Shown piece by piece: positions 12,353 through 63,717 of a DNA stretch of 64,000 nucleotides. How positions within the stretch are numbered: the stretch's first letter is position 1; each line of letters opens with the position of its first letter. Position numbers and translations under genes: made by a program. The stretch is from Halosimplex halophilum. GTDB taxonomy: Archaea > Halobacteriota > Halobacteria > Halobacteriales > Haloarculaceae. The stretch lies in NCBI RefSeq assembly GCF_004698125.1, contig NZ_ML214298.1, positions 496,001 through 560,000 of the forward strand, in the 5' to 3' direction. The notes beneath the pieces are model-generated. The model saw only the letters and a list, made by a program, of their open reading frames with translations, was not told where the DNA came from and did no database searches.

Positions 12353-12530
12353 ACCGCGAACAGCGTGAAAGCCCCGACGCGCTCGACTCGGGGGCTTCGC
12401 TGCGCTCCTCGGGCTTCGCCCTGCGGTGCTTGCGTCAGCCACCGTCGTCGAGCGCGTCGCCCCTTTCATTCCCACCCGCGTAGACTGACCATCCGGTTGG
12501 CACGGCCGGGGCTTTCACGCTGTCTGCGGT
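12353..12530. repeat. Palindromic intergenic repeat, family A, copy 1
   Basis: This 178-base element fills most of the 383-base gap between srp19 and btuF. Its 23-base ends (12353-12375 and 12508-12530) are inverted repeats with two mismatches. Inside, a 13-base perfect inverted repeat (12375-12387 with 12447-12459) forms a second stem. The second copy is at 42145-42343. Between copies the fifth pair of the inner stem changes from G:C to T:A, so pairing is kept. Apparent ORFs here are by-products of the repeat. The remaining bases of the gap show no gene. Confidence 0.8.
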
Positions 12531-16477: not shown

Positions 16478-16516
16478 GTGGCGGGGAGGGCTCCCCGACC
16501 GCCGGGGCGACCGACA

Positions 16517-16600
16517 ACCGAGGCGGCGGGCGGCCGTCGCGGCCGGTCACCGAGGCGGCGGGCGGCCGTCGCGGCCGGTCACCGAGGCGGCGGGCGGCCG
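16517..16600. repeat. 32-base GC-rich tandem repeat
   Basis: Two full identical units (16517-16548 and 16549-16580) and the first 20 bases of a third occur in the gap after btuD. The unit is almost all G and C, with short internal inversions (ggccg/cggcc). It is not a CRISPR: the units abut with no spacers. Confidence 0.85.
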
Positions 16601-16696
16601 TGGCCGCCGACCGCCGGTCGCCGGAGCGGGGACGGCGGCCGTGCGCCCCCGTCTCGTGGACACAACAGTTAATGGGGGCCGTACAGACTCCCGACT

Positions 16697-20980: not shown

Positions 20981-21423
20981 GTGACCGCAACCGCAGGAAA
21001 CAGTGAGCGTTGAAAGCCCTCGGCGCGCTCGCGGTCGCTGAGCGGGATATCCGCGCTCTCCGCACCGCCCGCTCACGGCACAGCCGTTCGCTTCGAGGCG
21101 CTGCGCGCCTCGCACCGCGCGGATAGTGCCCGCTCAGGCGACTAAACTGGACGCGAGCGCGCCTCGCCCTTTCAGTCCACCGGGAGAGCAAGCTCTCCCG
21201 AGCCCGCGCTCACACGTTCGCGCGGACGCCAGGAACAGCACGGCACCGCACCCGCCCCGCACAGCACCGCAGACGGCCACGGACCTCCCCAGCCGATTCG
21301 CTCCTGCCGTCGCTCATCCACCGTCGGAGCACGCTCCGACGAGCCTTCGTTCACACAGTTCACGAAGACCTCGCGCGGCTGCGTCGCGCGCACGAGAGCG
21401 CACGACGGCGCGCGCCGACCGCA
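20981..21423. repeat. Palindromic intergenic repeat, family B, copy 1
   Basis: This element occupies most of the 685-base gap between 20807 and 21491. A long imperfect hairpin pairs 21011-21056 with 21115-21174; its best stretches are TGAAAG (21011-21016) with CTTTCA (21169-21174) and the nine bases 21038-21046 with 21129-21137. The tail (about 21245-21423) also recurs in the copy at 43939-44232, including a nearly identical 45-base block around 21258-21300. An extra left arm lies at 20951-20975. No ORF here looks coding; the bases outside the element hold only the promoters of the flanking genes. Confidence 0.75.
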
Positions 21424-42144: not shown

Positions 42145-42343
42145 ACCGCGAACAGCGTGAAAGCCCCGACTCGCTCGACTCGGGCGCCTCGCTGCGCGCT
42201 TCACTCGCTTCGCTCGTTGCAGTGCCCGCGTCGTCGGCCTTCGTCGAGCGAGTCGCCCCTTTCATTCCCGCCCGCCCAGACTGGTCGGCGAGCCGATACG
42301 GGCGGGAATGGAAGCGGACGGGGGCTTTCACGCTGTCTGCGGT
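42145..42343. repeat. Palindromic intergenic repeat, family A, copy 2
   Basis: This copy occupies much of the 405-base gap 42037-42441. The 23-base ends (42145-42167, 42321-42343) are identical to those at 12353-12530. The inner 13-base stem is 42167-42179 with 42243-42255, carrying T42171:A42251 where copy 1 has G:C. This copy also has an extra 12-base perfect inverted repeat (42263-42274 with 42299-42310) that copy 1 lacks. Short ORFs across it share peptide similarity with those of copy 1 only because the DNA is repeated. No gene was found in the rest of the gap. Confidence 0.8.
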
Positions 42344-42394
42344 TGCTGTCGAGTTCGTGGTTGCTGTCGAGTTCGTGGTTGCTGTCGAGTTCGC
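42341..42394. repeat. 18-base tandem repeat at the edge of repeat A copy 2
   Basis: Three units of 18 bases (42341-42358, 42359-42376, 42377-42394; the last has one change) run directly from the right end of the family A element. They begin with the element's terminal bases, so they may have arisen by slippage there. The units abut, so this is not a CRISPR. Confidence 0.85.
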
Positions 42395-42441
42395 GGTCGC
42401 TGTTGCGGCGATCTCCGATTTCCCGTCGGTAGACCCCACTG

Positions 42442-43938: not shown

Positions 43939-44232
43939 GTGACCGCAGCCGACAGCGAGCGCTGAACGCCCTCGTCGCGCTCGCGGTCGCTGAGCGACAT
44001 ACCCTCGCGGCCTCGCGGCCGCCTCGGGTAGGGGTCGCTCAGGCGACTGAACTGCACGCGAGCGTGCCTCGCCCGTTCAGTCCGCCAGGACAGCACCGCC
44101 CCGCACAGCACCGCAGACGGCCACGAACCTCCCCAGCCGATTGCGCTCCGCGCGCCTCCGGCGTGCGGTGCTCATCCCTCGCGCGGCTACGGTCGCGCGC
44201 ATGAACGCGCGCTCCAGCGCGCGCCGACCGCA
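43939..44232. repeat. Palindromic intergenic repeat, family B, copy 2
   Basis: This copy lies in the 625-base gap 43735-44359. Hairpin arms are 43963-44004 and 44028-44079. TGAACG (43963-43968) pairs with CGTTCA (44074-44079), and the nine bases 43990-43998 pair with 44034-44042. Compared with copy 1 at 20981-21423 the paired bases differ but remain complementary. A small perfect palindrome (43921-43934) precedes the left edge. The shared downstream block is around 44093-44142. The rest of the gap shows only promoter-like sequence near 44327-44337 and no gene. Confidence 0.75.
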
Positions 44233-57078: not shown

Positions 57079-58464
57079 ATGACCGACGAGCGCGACGGGG
57101 ACACCGATGGGACTCCAGGGGACGACCTCGACGAGACCCATGTCGTGACGGTGTTCCTCCGCAACGACGGGGAGGTGTTGCTCCTGCGCCGGAGCGACGC
57201 GGTCGGCTCCTACACCGGGCGGTGGGGCGCCGTGGCGGGTCACGCCGAGAGCGACCCCGACGCCGCCGCCCGCGAGGAGACCCGCGAGGAGACGGGTATC
57301 GACCCCGACAGCGAGACCGCGCTGGTCCGGCGGGGCGACCCCTTCCCGGTCGTCGACGACGAACTCGGTCGCCGGTGGGTCGTCCACCCCTATCTGTTCG
57401 ACTGCGAGGTGCGGACCGTCGAACCGAACGAGGAGACCGACGAGTTCGAGTGGACGGCGCCGGCGGCGATCCTGCGACGCGAAACGGTGCCCGAACTCTG
57501 GACATCCTACGACCGGGTGCGGCCGACGGTCCAGACTGTCGCCGAAGACGCCCAGCACGGGTCGGCCTGGATATCGCTGCGCGCGCTGGAAGTTCTGCGG
57601 GACGAGGCCGCGCTGGCGGTCGAAGGAGTGGGCTGTGGTGGGGCGAGCGCGGACGGTGACGGTACGGACGCCGACGGTACCCCCGCGGACTGGACGGACC
57701 TCGTCGCCGTCGCCCGCGCCCTGCTGGACGCCCACCCGTCGATGGCCGTCGTCGCCAACCGCGTCAACCGGGCGATGGACGCGGCGAGCGAGGAAGCCAC
57801 CCCGGCCGCACTCGAAGCTGCTTCCTTCGAAGGTATCGAACGCGCGAGCGCCGCTGACGCCGACGCCGCCGCCCTCGCGGCGGACCGGCTCCCCGGTCGG
57901 ATCGCCACCCTCTCGCGGTCGGGGACGGTCGCGGCGGCGGTCGAGCGGGCCGACCCGGACGCGGTGCTGATCGCCGAGTCCCGACCGGGCCGGGAGGGCG
58001 TCGGGACCGCCGAGCGATTCGCCGAAGCGACCGACGCCGCGGTGACGCTGACGACCGACGCGGCGCTGGCCGACCGGCTGGCGGCGACGGATATCGGCGC
58101 GGTCGTCGTCGGCGCCGACACGGTGCTGCCGGACGGACGGGTCGTCAACAAGGTCGGGACCCGGGGCGCGGCCGCCGCGGCGGCCGCCGAGGGGATCGAC
58201 TGCTACGTCGTCGCCGCGAGCGACAAGATTGCGGCCGCGAGCGGTGAGGACCGGGCAGGGACGGCCGACGACGTGGACCGCGAGGAGCGCGACCCCCGCG
58301 AGGTGTACGACGGCGACGCTCCCGTGAGTGTTGAGAACCCGACCTTCGACGTGACCCCGCCGGAACTGGTCGACGCGGTCCTGACCGAGCGCGGCGCGCT
58401 GGACGCCGACGGGATCCGCGCCGTCGCCGACGAACACCGCGCGCTGGCCGGGTGGGACGACTAG
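57079..58464 (+). CDS. Fusion of a NUDIX hydrolase to an eIF2B-like domain
   Basis: In this 461-residue protein, residues 20-150 form a NUDIX fold. The box is imperfect: the Glu-x-x-Glu-Glu metal core is kept (Glu-Glu-Thr-Arg-Glu-Glu-Thr-Gly-Ile), but the leading Gly and first Glu of the consensus are not in register. After a linker, residues 210-455 resemble eIF2B-alpha/ribose-1,5-bisphosphate isomerase, with Val-Val-Gly-Ala-Asp-Thr-Val-Leu-Pro-Asp-Gly and Asn-Lys-Val-Gly-Thr. The loop that carries the catalytic Cys in isomerases reads Leu-Ser-Arg-Ser-Gly-Thr, without Cys, so isomerase activity looks unlikely. The fusion suggests nucleotide-sugar handling or signalling. The exact role is unknown. 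Confidence 0.85.
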   Translation: MTDERDGDTDGTPGDDLDETHVVTVFLRNDGEVLLLRRSDAVGSYTGRWGAVAGHAESDPDAAAREETREETGIDPDSETALVRRGDPFPVVDDELGRRWVVHPYLFDCEVRTVEPNEETDEFEWTAPAAILRRETVPELWTSYDRVRPTVQTVAEDAQHGSAWISLRALEVLRDEAALAVEGVGCGGASADGDGTDADGTPADWTDLVAVARALLDAHPSMAVVANRVNRAMDAASEEATPAALEAASFEGIERASAADADAAALAADRLPGRIATLSRSGTVAAAVERADPDAVLIAESRPGREGVGTAERFAEATDAAVTLTTDAALADRLAATDIGAVVVGADTVLPDGRVVNKVGTRGAAAAAAAEGIDCYVVAASDKIAAASGEDRAGTADDVDREERDPREVYDGDAPVSVENPTFDVTPPELVDAVLTERGALDADGIRAVADEHRALAGWDD

Positions 58465-60970: not shown

Positions 60971-61573
60971 CTACAGCAGGCCCTCGTCGCGGGCGACGAG
61001 CAGCGAAACGAGCGAGGCGGCGAACGGGACCTCGCGCGACCGGACCGCAGCGATCGCGTCCTCGCGTGGGACCGTGTACACCTCGATGTCCTCGCCGCCC
61101 TCGCGCTCGGGAGCCCCGGGTTCCAGGTCGGACGCGTAGACGACCGCCTGGGTCATCCGGGTCCAGGCGGTGGGCTCGAACGCCTCCAGCAACTCGGTCT
61201 CGCCGGCGCGAAAGCCCGTCTCCTCGCGGAGTTCGCGGACGCCGGCGTCGACGAACGACTCGCCGTCGTCGACGGCGCCGCCGGGGACGGTCAGCAGCGA
61301 CCGGTCCAGCCGGGCGTCGTACTGTTCGAGCAGGACGACCTCGCCGTCGGCCGTCTCGGCGACGACCGCCACGAAGTCGCCCGGGTCGATCCAGTAGTAG
61401 CGGCTCACGTCGCCGTCGGGCTGGCGGTACTCGTCGTAGCCGGCCTCGAAGTAGGGGTTCTCCCAGACGACCTCGGTGTCGAGGCGGGTCCAGTCGGCGC
61501 CGGCGTCGGCGGGCGGCTCCGCGAGGTCGGCAGCGCTCGCGGCGGTCGGCTCGGCGGGTTCGCCGTCGGTCAC
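60971..61573 (-). CDS. NUDIX hydrolase, copy 4 of a tandem array
   Basis: This 200-residue protein is the most downstream of four NUDIX paralogues read toward lower coordinates. The canonical box Gly-x5-Glu-x7-Arg-Glu-Leu-x-Glu-Glu-x-Gly-Phe is intact (Gly-Ala-Val-Asp-Asp-Gly-Glu … Arg-Glu-Leu-Arg-Glu-Glu-Thr-Gly-Phe). A shared Tyr-Tyr-Trp motif precedes the fold and the end Ala-Arg-Asp-Glu-Gly-Leu-Leu matches its siblings. An Ala/Glu-rich N-terminal extension of about 35 residues is specific to this copy. The GTG start at 61573 overlaps the stop of copy 3 by four bases. Likely substrates are nucleoside diphosphate derivatives such as ADP-ribose, but specificity cannot be read. Confidence 0.88.
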   Translation of the reverse strand: MTDGEPAEPTAASAADLAEPPADAGADWTRLDTEVVWENPYFEAGYDEYRQPDGDVSRYYWIDPGDFVAVVAETADGEVVLLEQYDARLDRSLLTVPGGAVDDGESFVDAGVRELREETGFRAGETELLEAFEPTAWTRMTQAVVYASDLEPGAPEREGGEDIEVYTVPREDAIAAVRSREVPFAASLVSLLVARDEGLL

Positions 61574-62103
61574 AGTCCCTCCGCGAGCGCGAGCAGCAGC
61601 GGCGTCAGCTGCGCGCCGTGGACGACCTCCGCGTCGAGGACGGCGTCGAGCGCGTCGGCGACCGGGACCGTGTGGACGGTGACGAACTCCCCCTCGTCGG
61701 GGTCGCGCTCGACCCGGTCGAGGGCGTCGGCGAGGAAGACCGTACACTCCATCCGGACCCACTGCTCGGGCCGGTAGGTGAGCAGCGCCGTCGGGTCGGC
61801 CGCGAGATACCCCGTCTCCTCGCGCAGCTCGCGGACCGCGGCGTCGGCGGGCGACTCGTCGGGGTGGACGCCGCCGGCCGGGCAGCCGAGGACGGTCCCG
61901 CCGAGCTGGGGTTCGTACTCCTCGACGAGGACGACCTCGCCGTCGTCGGTGACGGGCACGACCGCGACCACGTCGGCGGGGTCGATCCAGTAGTAGCGGG
62001 CGGTCGTGCCGTCGGGTCGCCGGACGACGTCGTAGCCCGCGGCGAAGTACTCGTTCTCGTACTCGACGACCGACGACTCGACGCGCCAGTCGCCGCCGGT
62101 CAC
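61570..62103 (-). CDS. NUDIX hydrolase, copy 3 of a tandem array
   Basis: This 177-residue protein has the full NUDIX box (Gly-Gly-Val-His-Pro-Asp-Glu … Arg-Glu-Leu-Arg-Glu-Glu-Thr-Gly-Tyr). The Tyr-Tyr-Trp-Ile-Asp-Pro motif before the fold is shared with copy 4, to which it is closest. It ends Ala-Leu-Ala-Glu-Gly-Leu, one residue shorter than the others. GTG 62103 overlaps the stop of copy 2 (GTGA). Metal residues are intact, so an active pyrophosphohydrolase is expected. The substrate loops differ between copies, suggesting divided specificity. Confidence 0.88.
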   Translation of the reverse strand: MTGGDWRVESSVVEYENEYFAAGYDVVRRPDGTTARYYWIDPADVVAVVPVTDDGEVVLVEEYEPQLGGTVLGCPAGGVHPDESPADAAVRELREETGYLAADPTALLTYRPEQWVRMECTVFLADALDRVERDPDEGEFVTVHTVPVADALDAVLDAEVVHGAQLTPLLLALAEGL

Positions 62104-62666
62104 AGCAGACCCTCCTCGCGGGCGAGCAACAGGCCGGTGAGGGTGATGCCCTCCGACACTCCCTCGCGGCCTCGCAGGCGGTCGACCGCCTCGTCGGCCG
62201 GGACCGTCTCCACGTCGACGTACTCGCCGTCGTCGAGGTCGCGCTCGCCGCGGTCGAGGCCGGTGGCGACGTACAGGTGGCGGACGTACCGCGTCCACGG
62301 CGACAGCGTGTGGGTTTCGAGGTGCGAGAGGTCGTCGGCGACGAACCCCGTCTCCTCGCGGAGTTCCCGCGCGGCCGCAGCCTCGGGGTCCTCGCCGTCC
62401 TCGACGAACCCGGCGGGGAGCCCGAGCGACCGCCGGCGGTAGCGCGGCCGGTACTGCTCGACGAGGACGAGTTCGTCGTCGTCGGTCACCGCGACCGCGG
62501 CCGCGGCGTCGGCCGAGGCGAGCCAGTAGTACTCGCCCTCGGTCCCGTCGGGGCGTTCGACCACGTCGTAGCCCGCCTCGCAGAACGGCGTCTCCCAGGC
62601 GACGACCTCCTCGCGGACCGGCCACTCGGCGTCGTCGTCCGTCCAGGGCGGGTCGGGCGGGGTCAC
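62100..62666 (-). CDS. NUDIX hydrolase, copy 2 of a tandem array
   Basis: This 188-residue protein has the canonical NUDIX box Gly-Phe-Val-Glu-Asp-Gly-Glu … Arg-Glu-Leu-Arg-Glu-Glu-Thr-Gly-Phe. Before it stands Tyr-Tyr-Trp-Leu-Ala-Ser in place of the Ile-Asp-Pro of copies 3 and 4. The terminal Ala-Arg-Glu-Glu-Gly-Leu-Leu is kept. The GTG start at 62666 overlaps the stop of copy 1. It follows the Val-Glu-Gln-Tyr-Arg-Pro motif typical of ADP-sugar pyrophosphatases, which makes ADP-ribose or a similar compound a reasonable candidate. No substrate is proven. Confidence 0.88.
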   Translation of the reverse strand: MTPPDPPWTDDDAEWPVREEVVAWETPFCEAGYDVVERPDGTEGEYYWLASADAAAAVAVTDDDELVLVEQYRPRYRRRSLGLPAGFVEDGEDPEAAAARELREETGFVADDLSHLETHTLSPWTRYVRHLYVATGLDRGERDLDDGEYVDVETVPADEAVDRLRGREGVSEGITLTGLLLAREEGLL

Positions 62667-63301
62667 AGCAGCCCGTCCTCCTTCGCGAGCAGTATTCCCT
62701 CGATGGTGGCGTCGTTGGCGGGCTGGCGCCGCGCCACGGTCAGCGCGTCGTCGACTGGTACCGTGGTCACCGAGAGGAACTCGTTGCCGTCCAGATCGCG
62801 CTCGACCGGTTCGAGCCCCTCGGCGAAGACGATGCCCCGCCTGTGTCGCAGGACGCCGGTCGAACACCAGAACTCCTCCAGCAGGGAGACGCCGGCGGGG
62901 TCGAAGCCCGTCTCCTCGCGCAGTTCGCGGGCGCCGGCGGTCGTGAACGACTCGCCGTCCTCGACGATGCCCGCTGGGAGTTCGAGGCACTGCTCGCGGA
63001 TGACAGGCCGGTACTGGTCGACGAGGACGAGTTCGTCGCCGGTCCGGGCGACGACGACCACCGCGTCGGGGAGCTCCGCCCAGTAGTAGTCCTTCTCGGT
63101 GCCGTCGGGCTGCTCGACGCGGTCGTAGCCGCCGGTGTACCAGCCGGTCTCGTACTCCGCCTCGCGCTCGGTGACCCGCCACTCGTGGCCGGGTTCTCGG
63201 GTCCGTCCGTCCGCCGCGGGGTCGGCCGCCTCGCGGTCGCCGCCGTCGGTCCGCTCGTCGTCGCGGTCGCCGCGGTCGTCCGCGTCGTCGCGGTCGCTCA
63301 T
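62663..63301 (-). CDS. NUDIX hydrolase, copy 1 of a tandem array
   Basis: This 212-residue protein is the first of the four paralogues in transcription order. A strongly acidic Asp/Arg-rich N-terminal region (about 40 residues) precedes the fold. The box is canonical: Gly-Ile-Val-Glu-Asp-Gly-Glu … Arg-Glu-Leu-Arg-Glu-Glu-Thr-Gly-Phe. Tyr-Tyr-Trp-Ala and Val-Asp-Gln-Tyr-Arg-Pro precede it, and the end is Lys-Glu-Asp-Gly-Leu-Leu. ATG 63301 overlaps the stop of the small membrane-anchored protein upstream (ATGA). It resembles ADP-ribose pyrophosphatase-type NUDIX enzymes; specificity is inferred. Confidence 0.88.
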   Translation of the reverse strand: MSDRDDADDRGDRDDERTDGGDREAADPAADGRTREPGHEWRVTEREAEYETGWYTGGYDRVEQPDGTEKDYYWAELPDAVVVVARTGDELVLVDQYRPVIREQCLELPAGIVEDGESFTTAGARELREETGFDPAGVSLLEEFWCSTGVLRHRRGIVFAEGLEPVERDLDGNEFLSVTTVPVDDALTVARRQPANDATIEGILLAKEDGLL

Positions 63302-63717
63302 GGTCGCTGTCCGACCGCGACCCGGTAAAGCGTGCCGTTGTACGAGACGAGCACGCCCGACTCGGAGACGGCCGTCGCGTTGCGCGCCGCCAGCGCCGAC
63401 CGCTCGTCGAACGGCGAGTGGGTGAACGACTCCTTCAGCCCCCACGGCCCCTTCCGGTAGGGGTCCGAGGTGCCGTTGCGGAGCGCCTGAGTAGTGTAGG
63501 GGTAGCGCCGCTCCGAGAGCGCCGAGCCGTTGACGGCGGCGCTCTCGTTGACGGCCGCCGCGCCGGAGCCGTCGGCCGACTCGTTTCCGTCGACGGGTTC
63601 GGCGGTGACGTAGTAGGGGTCGCCGCTGGCGAGCAGCGACGGGAGGGCACCGAGCGCGAGCAGCGCGACCACGACTCCGAGGATCAACAGGACGGCGTTG
63701 CGAGTGACCCGACGCAT
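63298..63717 (-). CDS. Small membrane-anchored exported protein at the head of the NUDIX operon
   Basis: This 139-residue protein has a hydrophobic N-terminal helix (about residues 8-30) with two Arg before it, which could be a signal anchor. The remainder is extracellular-looking, with several Asn-x-Ser/Thr sites (Asn-Glu-Ser, Asn-Gly-Ser, Asn-Gly-Thr) and Tyr/Ser-rich sequence. I recognise no family. Its last four bases overlap the ATG of the first NUDIX gene, so it is co-transcribed with the array. Why an exported protein should lead four cytoplasmic NUDIX genes is unclear. Confidence 0.6.
   Translation of the reverse strand: MRRVTRNAVLLILGVVVALLALGALPSLLASGDPYYVTAEPVDGNESADGSGAAAVNESAAVNGSALSERRYPYTTQALRNGTSDPYRKGPWGLKESFTHSPFDERSALAARNATAVSESGVLVSYNGTLYRVAVGQRP

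Follow-up and report, generated by a model that had tools for sequence, protein, structure and literature searches.

We propose that the two palindromic repeats found in the window, the whole 64,000-nucleotide stretch of Halosimplex halophilum DNA analysed here, belong to a haloarchaeal family of non-coding, non-autonomous DNA elements whose arm is able to fold as a hairpin or cruciform, and which would have spread in the past through a function supplied in trans and been reshaped by gene conversion, a reading to which we assign a probability of roughly 0.6. Stem pairing is preserved across the family while stem sequence turns over, and the family is class-wide within Halobacteria and intergenic. 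The two window copies are truncated and decayed members of a double-hairpin element family. The first-pass annotation had described 23-base inverted ends, an inner 13-base stem and a pair change between the copies that leaves pairing intact, all of which the sequence bears out: the ends match at 21 of 23 positions in each copy, both stems are perfect, and G12379:C12455 of copy 1 is replaced by T42171:A42251 in copy 2 (Table 1). As a single pair change proves little, the evidence rests on hundreds of further arms. Within the 64-kb window CGTGAAAGCCCC occurs 4 times against 0.3 expected (at most one mismatch), and GTCGCCCCTTTCATTCCC twice against 0.00 expected.

Table 1. Features of the family in the window. 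Fold z compares the single-stranded DNA fold of the + strand with shuffles, negative values marking the better fold of the arm.
Feature	Position	Strand	Basis
Copy 1, left outer inverted end, ACCGCGAACAGCGTGAAAGCCCC	12353..12375	+	sequence; 21/23 to inverted 12508-12530
Copy 1, arm 1	12363..12478	+	model R1 121 bits, E 1.2e-26; fold z -6.3
Copy 1 arm 1, P1	GAAAG 12367-12371 / CTTTC 12463-12467	+	
Copy 1 arm 1, fixed CCC/CCC	12372-12374 / 12460-12462	+	
Copy 1 arm 1, 13-bp stem	12375-12387 / 12447-12459	+	all paired
Conserved core GCCCCTTTCATTCCCACCCG	12459..12478	+	word counts and 20-mer search
Central dyad, degenerate remnant; arm 2 deleted	12479..12507	.	alignment with orthologues, one with intact arm 2
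Copy 1, right outer inverted end	12508..12530	-	sequence
Copy 2, left outer inverted end	42145..42167	+	sequence; 21/23 to inverted 42321-42343
Copy 2, arm 1	42155..42274	+	model R1 128.5 bits, E 2.1e-28; fold z -2.7
Copy 2 arm 1, P1	42159-42163 / 42259-42263	+	
Copy 2 arm 1, CCC/CCC	42164-42166 / 42256-42258	+	
Copy 2 arm 1, 13-bp stem	42167-42179 / 42243-42255	+	all paired
Copy 2, opposite half of central dyad, remnant (GGGCGGGAATGGAAGCGG); rest of arm 2 gone	42300..42320	-	
Copy 2, right outer inverted end	42321..42343	-	sequence
Type-II arm, GAAAGCCC..CCCTTTCANTCC ends as in main family, interior different	21005..21178	+	sequence
Second type-II arm, GAACGCCC..CCCGTTCAGTCC	43950..44083	+	sequence

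A genome search placed at least 14 dispersed sites of the family in the host Halosimplex genome. The intact form is a double hairpin of ~290 bp made up of the outer motif ACAGCGTGAAAGCCCC, arm 1, a central GCCCCTTTCATTCCCRCCCG dyad, arm 2 and the inverted outer motif. It is complete at 10 of the 14 sites, with its palindromes paired head-to-head and with near-constant spacing (outer motif, ~104 nt, core CCCCTTTCATTCCC, 48 nt, inverted core, ~104 nt, inverted outer motif), and both window copies have retained arm 1 and the outer ends and lost most of arm 2. The repeat unit is the arm of ~105-130 bp with its 13-bp stem, and the hairpin-bearing elements, ~290 bp or ~340 bp long, have no gene called inside any of them. 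Recent segmental duplication of one locus, which the first-pass annotation had named as an explanation should only two copies exist, draws on the window holding just two; it is refuted by the 14 host-genome sites, the unrelated flanks and the class-wide range.

The two type-II arms are, to judge from their common ends, probably related to the main family. A CCTCCCCAGCCG module comes after the first, at 21284; after the second come CCTCCCCAGCCG (44128) and CTCATCCCTCGC (44171). Both (21005-21190 and 43950-44090 of the window) have an interior GGTCGCTGAGCGACAT.. and precede the CCTCCCCAGCCG..CTCATCCCTCGC module, and the same module trails the arms of genus g20, which is probably Halorubrum. Additional hairpins, short and perfectly paired and closed by TTCG-like loops (e.g. 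GAGAGAGCTTCGCTCTCTC), lie inside the arm loops of L009, L011, L018, L035 and L048, at times several in succession and at times common to different loci. Degenerate ACCGC/GCGGT runs are found directly outside the ends of the Halosimplex copies (e.g. window 42340-42410), and an 18-bp unit, TGTCGAGTTCGTGGTTGC, stands in tandem in the flank of copy 2. Elsewhere the window carries a 32-bp GC-rich repeat in three tandem copies (16501-16616) and at least four NUDIX-domain genes by Pfam (57079-58464 and 60971-63445); three of these form a tandem cluster, and one is an IF-2B domain fusion.

The arms of ~30 genomes share P1 GAAAG/CTTTC, a mismatch fixed as CCC/CCC and a 13-bp stem almost free in sequence, and their inner stems carry the fixed motifs CTGCGC and GTGCTT. 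In g20 the end pair of P1 is C-G instead of G-C, both sides having been altered to give CAAAG/CTTTG. When stem positions were taken at a fixed distance from conserved words, a reading free of any assumed structure, 58 distinct stems were 91.9% Watson-Crick, as against 46.4% (sd 2.2, maximum 53.3%) after partner shuffling, so that the changes are not the random ones that would have spoken against a selected fold. Mutual information also recovers the inner stem, around an invariant G.G mismatch (columns 32/93). With a hand-set structure 97.6% of cells are paired, compared with 37-45% in slid controls, and 219 cells changed on both sides against 1 changed on one side; this alignment (A2) admitted an arm only if 12 or more of its 13 stem positions paired, and its percentages are biased upward, the less biased figures being those of the 58 stems and of 112 arms taken without selection for pairing, in which 3105 of 3293 cells are Watson-Crick, 31 G-T, 50 A-C and 107 other. 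The covariation model that the first-pass annotation had called for has been built, and compensatory change of the kind it saw in one pair recurs across hundreds of co-varying arms.

Such pairing might also persist in arms that are functionless now, if it were kept purely by mutation, with template switching in the hairpin copying one side onto the other. The near absence of one-sided changes and the strictly Watson-Crick pairing fit this account, as do the flipped interiors described below, the extra TTCG hairpins growing in loops and the recurrence of deletions. We nevertheless consider it somewhat unlikely, since the fixed mismatches (CCC/CCC and the G.G at columns 32/93) have been left 'uncorrected', and the conservation of interior motifs across families would need either selection or recent common spread.

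Our observations favour a structure maintained in DNA over a structured RNA, transcription being possible, because there is no G-T excess, interiors flip, copies are intergenic, orientation is unbiased and Rfam holds no match. Selection on the RNA of a given strand should favour G-U over A-C; the 112 arms have 31 G-T against 50 A-C, where 13 tRNAs from the same loci, serving as a control, have 4 against 0. Read from the opposite strand the arms would show a weak G-U excess (50 vs 31). The interior is inverted between intact stems in 4 of ~218 type-I arms (L003, L036, L168 and L174), and inversion, being a DNA event, counts toward structure at the DNA level. Among g20 copies in tandem intergenic regions 5 are oriented with the genes and 4 against, and the search of Rfam returned zero matches at gathering score or E<=1. 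A non-coding RNA family, whose arm would be transcribed and selected for its fold at the RNA level, would explain the strong covariation and the fixed unpaired and internal-loop motifs. The 71 nt upstream of g20 arms are conserved and could conceivably hold a promoter, and haloarchaeal palindrome-associated transposable elements (PATEs) can be expressed as ncRNA (PMC10544981). With the pair counts weakening this explanation, short of excluding it, and with the head-to-head dyads, the unbiased orientation to genes, the flipping of interiors inside the stem and the Rfam result also set against it, we regard it as unlikely. The first-pass annotation had left a non-autonomous mobile element and a structured RNA side by side; the former has gained plausibility from copies that are many and dispersed, and the latter has lost ground.

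The covariance model finds the arm in at least 336 of 391 Halobacteria genomes (~86%) and in 76 of 86 genera, so that the further copies the first-pass annotation sought exist in abundance. A scan reaching into the rest of the phylum gives at least 38 of 43 genomes of the same order and, among the candidates scored, none of ~204 others. An exact 20-mer search badly underestimates the family (51 genomes vs 336 by the model). Its sole bacterial match, L102, lacks an arm when scored with the model and was set aside, ~1 chance match being expected at that collection size. Scanning a single g20 genome, G009, gave 95 copies; haloarchaeal plasmids carry arms, and a viral contig collection yielded 0 matches to the core. 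With genes called from codon-position composition, all 44 copies checked are intergenic and none overlaps a predicted gene.

Comparison of orthologous sites shows copies that are old and vertically kept, in which arm 2 has been lost repeatedly and whole arms have been replaced. The element of copy 1 is present at the same site in five Halosimplex species, with arm 2 complete in G275 only and the other orthologues cut differently, and one of its stem pairs is C:G in G000 and G275 and T:A in G393. Another site, in G161, is seemingly empty, yet its right end or scar remains, and because that end is kept the site represents a deletion and not a pre-insertion state. Searches for empty sites in Halosimplex and g20 found only occupied or decayed ones and no clean insertion. 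At one g20 site three genomes have an orthologous outer element and differ in arm type, and at site L008 the arm type is likewise different in G392; these switches fit an exchange of arms between copies. Two g20 elements at unrelated loci, L211 and L217, are 94.6% identical over 423 bp, have a unique ~90-bp insert in common and, with their identical sharp ends, make the best candidate for recent copying. At L272 (G171 C23:149000-150500), orthologous to g20 element L207, an HD-domain-like ORF, read by eye, is flanked by outer-end-like sequences, which could reflect gene capture or an unrelated replacement.

From the copy number and scatter we infer movement, putatively in the past. An enzyme supplied in trans may have acted on the folded DNA arm, recognising it by its fixed features, namely GAAAG/CTTTC, the CCC/CCC mismatch and the inner motifs. 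Gene conversion is established in polyploid haloarchaea, and the present-day likeness of copies would, from the comparisons made here, stem mainly from conversion between copies in such cells, with arms swapped as whole cassettes and both sides of the stem thereby changing together, and with hairpin deletions eroding the copies. The flanking target duplications and matching transposase that the first-pass annotation suggested looking for did not come to light: no duplication is visible at 14 host-genome sites or at ~25 g20 sites, and no arm is carried by the 5 tnpA/tnpB loci of the host genome (4 tnpB, 1 tnpA) or by 30 tnpB loci in 8 other genomes (best E 0.12). The host genome has one Y1_Tnp gene, with no arm adjoining. 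A classical MITE, in which a DDE transposase cuts at the terminal inverted repeats and target duplications result, would account for the inverted ends of both window copies (21/23) and for dispersed g20 copies with consistent ends, and the element is short and non-coding as MITEs are. The lack of target duplications at these sites, outer ends that vary between lineages around a constant arm structure, and the want of a cognate transposase among the tnpA/tnpB loci examined make this very unlikely.

More speculatively, Halobacteria might possess a system of mobility or recombination that is so far undescribed, whose enzyme reads the folded arm by structure over stem sequence and in which arms trade places, and interiors turn round, as cassettes, an extension of the proposed element family that we hold to be doubtful. 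Its principle would resemble that of integron attC sites or of IS605 ends. Integron attC sites themselves lie in cassette arrays, and despite a similar architecture we do not count the element among them, its sites being dispersed.

The nearest described kinds are the PATEs and small mobile repeats (SMRs) of Haloquadratum. PATEs are transposase-free, heterogeneous and present in many copies, their palindromes match the ends of IS605-type transposons, and they have no terminal inverted repeats (PMC3119063). Like them our element is haloarchaeal, transposase-free, heterogeneous, palindromic, without target duplication and in many copies, and both are too short for a transposase and have palindromes near their ends. 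It differs in having inverted ends (21/23) and in showing no link to IS605 ends (0/4 tnpB and 0/1 tnpA in the host; 0/30 tnpB elsewhere). SMR-A repeats are ~110 bp long with prominent inverted repeats, occur in tens of copies and make no target duplication, and SMR copies of one type are usually >95% identical and sit within PATE/IS605 palindromes (PMC3119063). The arms, at 105-130 bp with inverted repeats, tens of copies and target duplication absent, resemble SMR-A, yet stems differ in nearly every copy where SMRs are near-identical, and copies occupy ordinary intergenic regions with none near tnpB. As each fails a tested defining feature, we have filed the element under neither. Bacterial REP/BIMEs, which have RAYT transposases, are intergenic palindromes often in head-to-head pairs (PMC2817692, PMC3733652). 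In anatomy our copies are like them, the palindromes being intergenic and head-to-head at 10/14 sites, and the element differs in being longer, without a GTAG-type foot and free in stem sequence.

We found no earlier description of the family in a limited search of open-access papers. What is new is a class-wide, structure-conserved repeat whose stem is nearly sequence-free and which resembles known kinds of palindromic repeat. A repeat in ~86% of sampled haloarchaeal genomes that is absent from Rfam marks a large blind spot of genome annotation. Furthermore, its strict Watson-Crick covariation without G-U intermediates offers a clean case for telling structure at the DNA level from structure at the RNA level, and the orthologous series lets the loss of palindromes and the exchange of arms be measured in polyploid archaea. 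Finally, a hairpin-recognising enzyme, if the proposed system is real, would be new in archaea.
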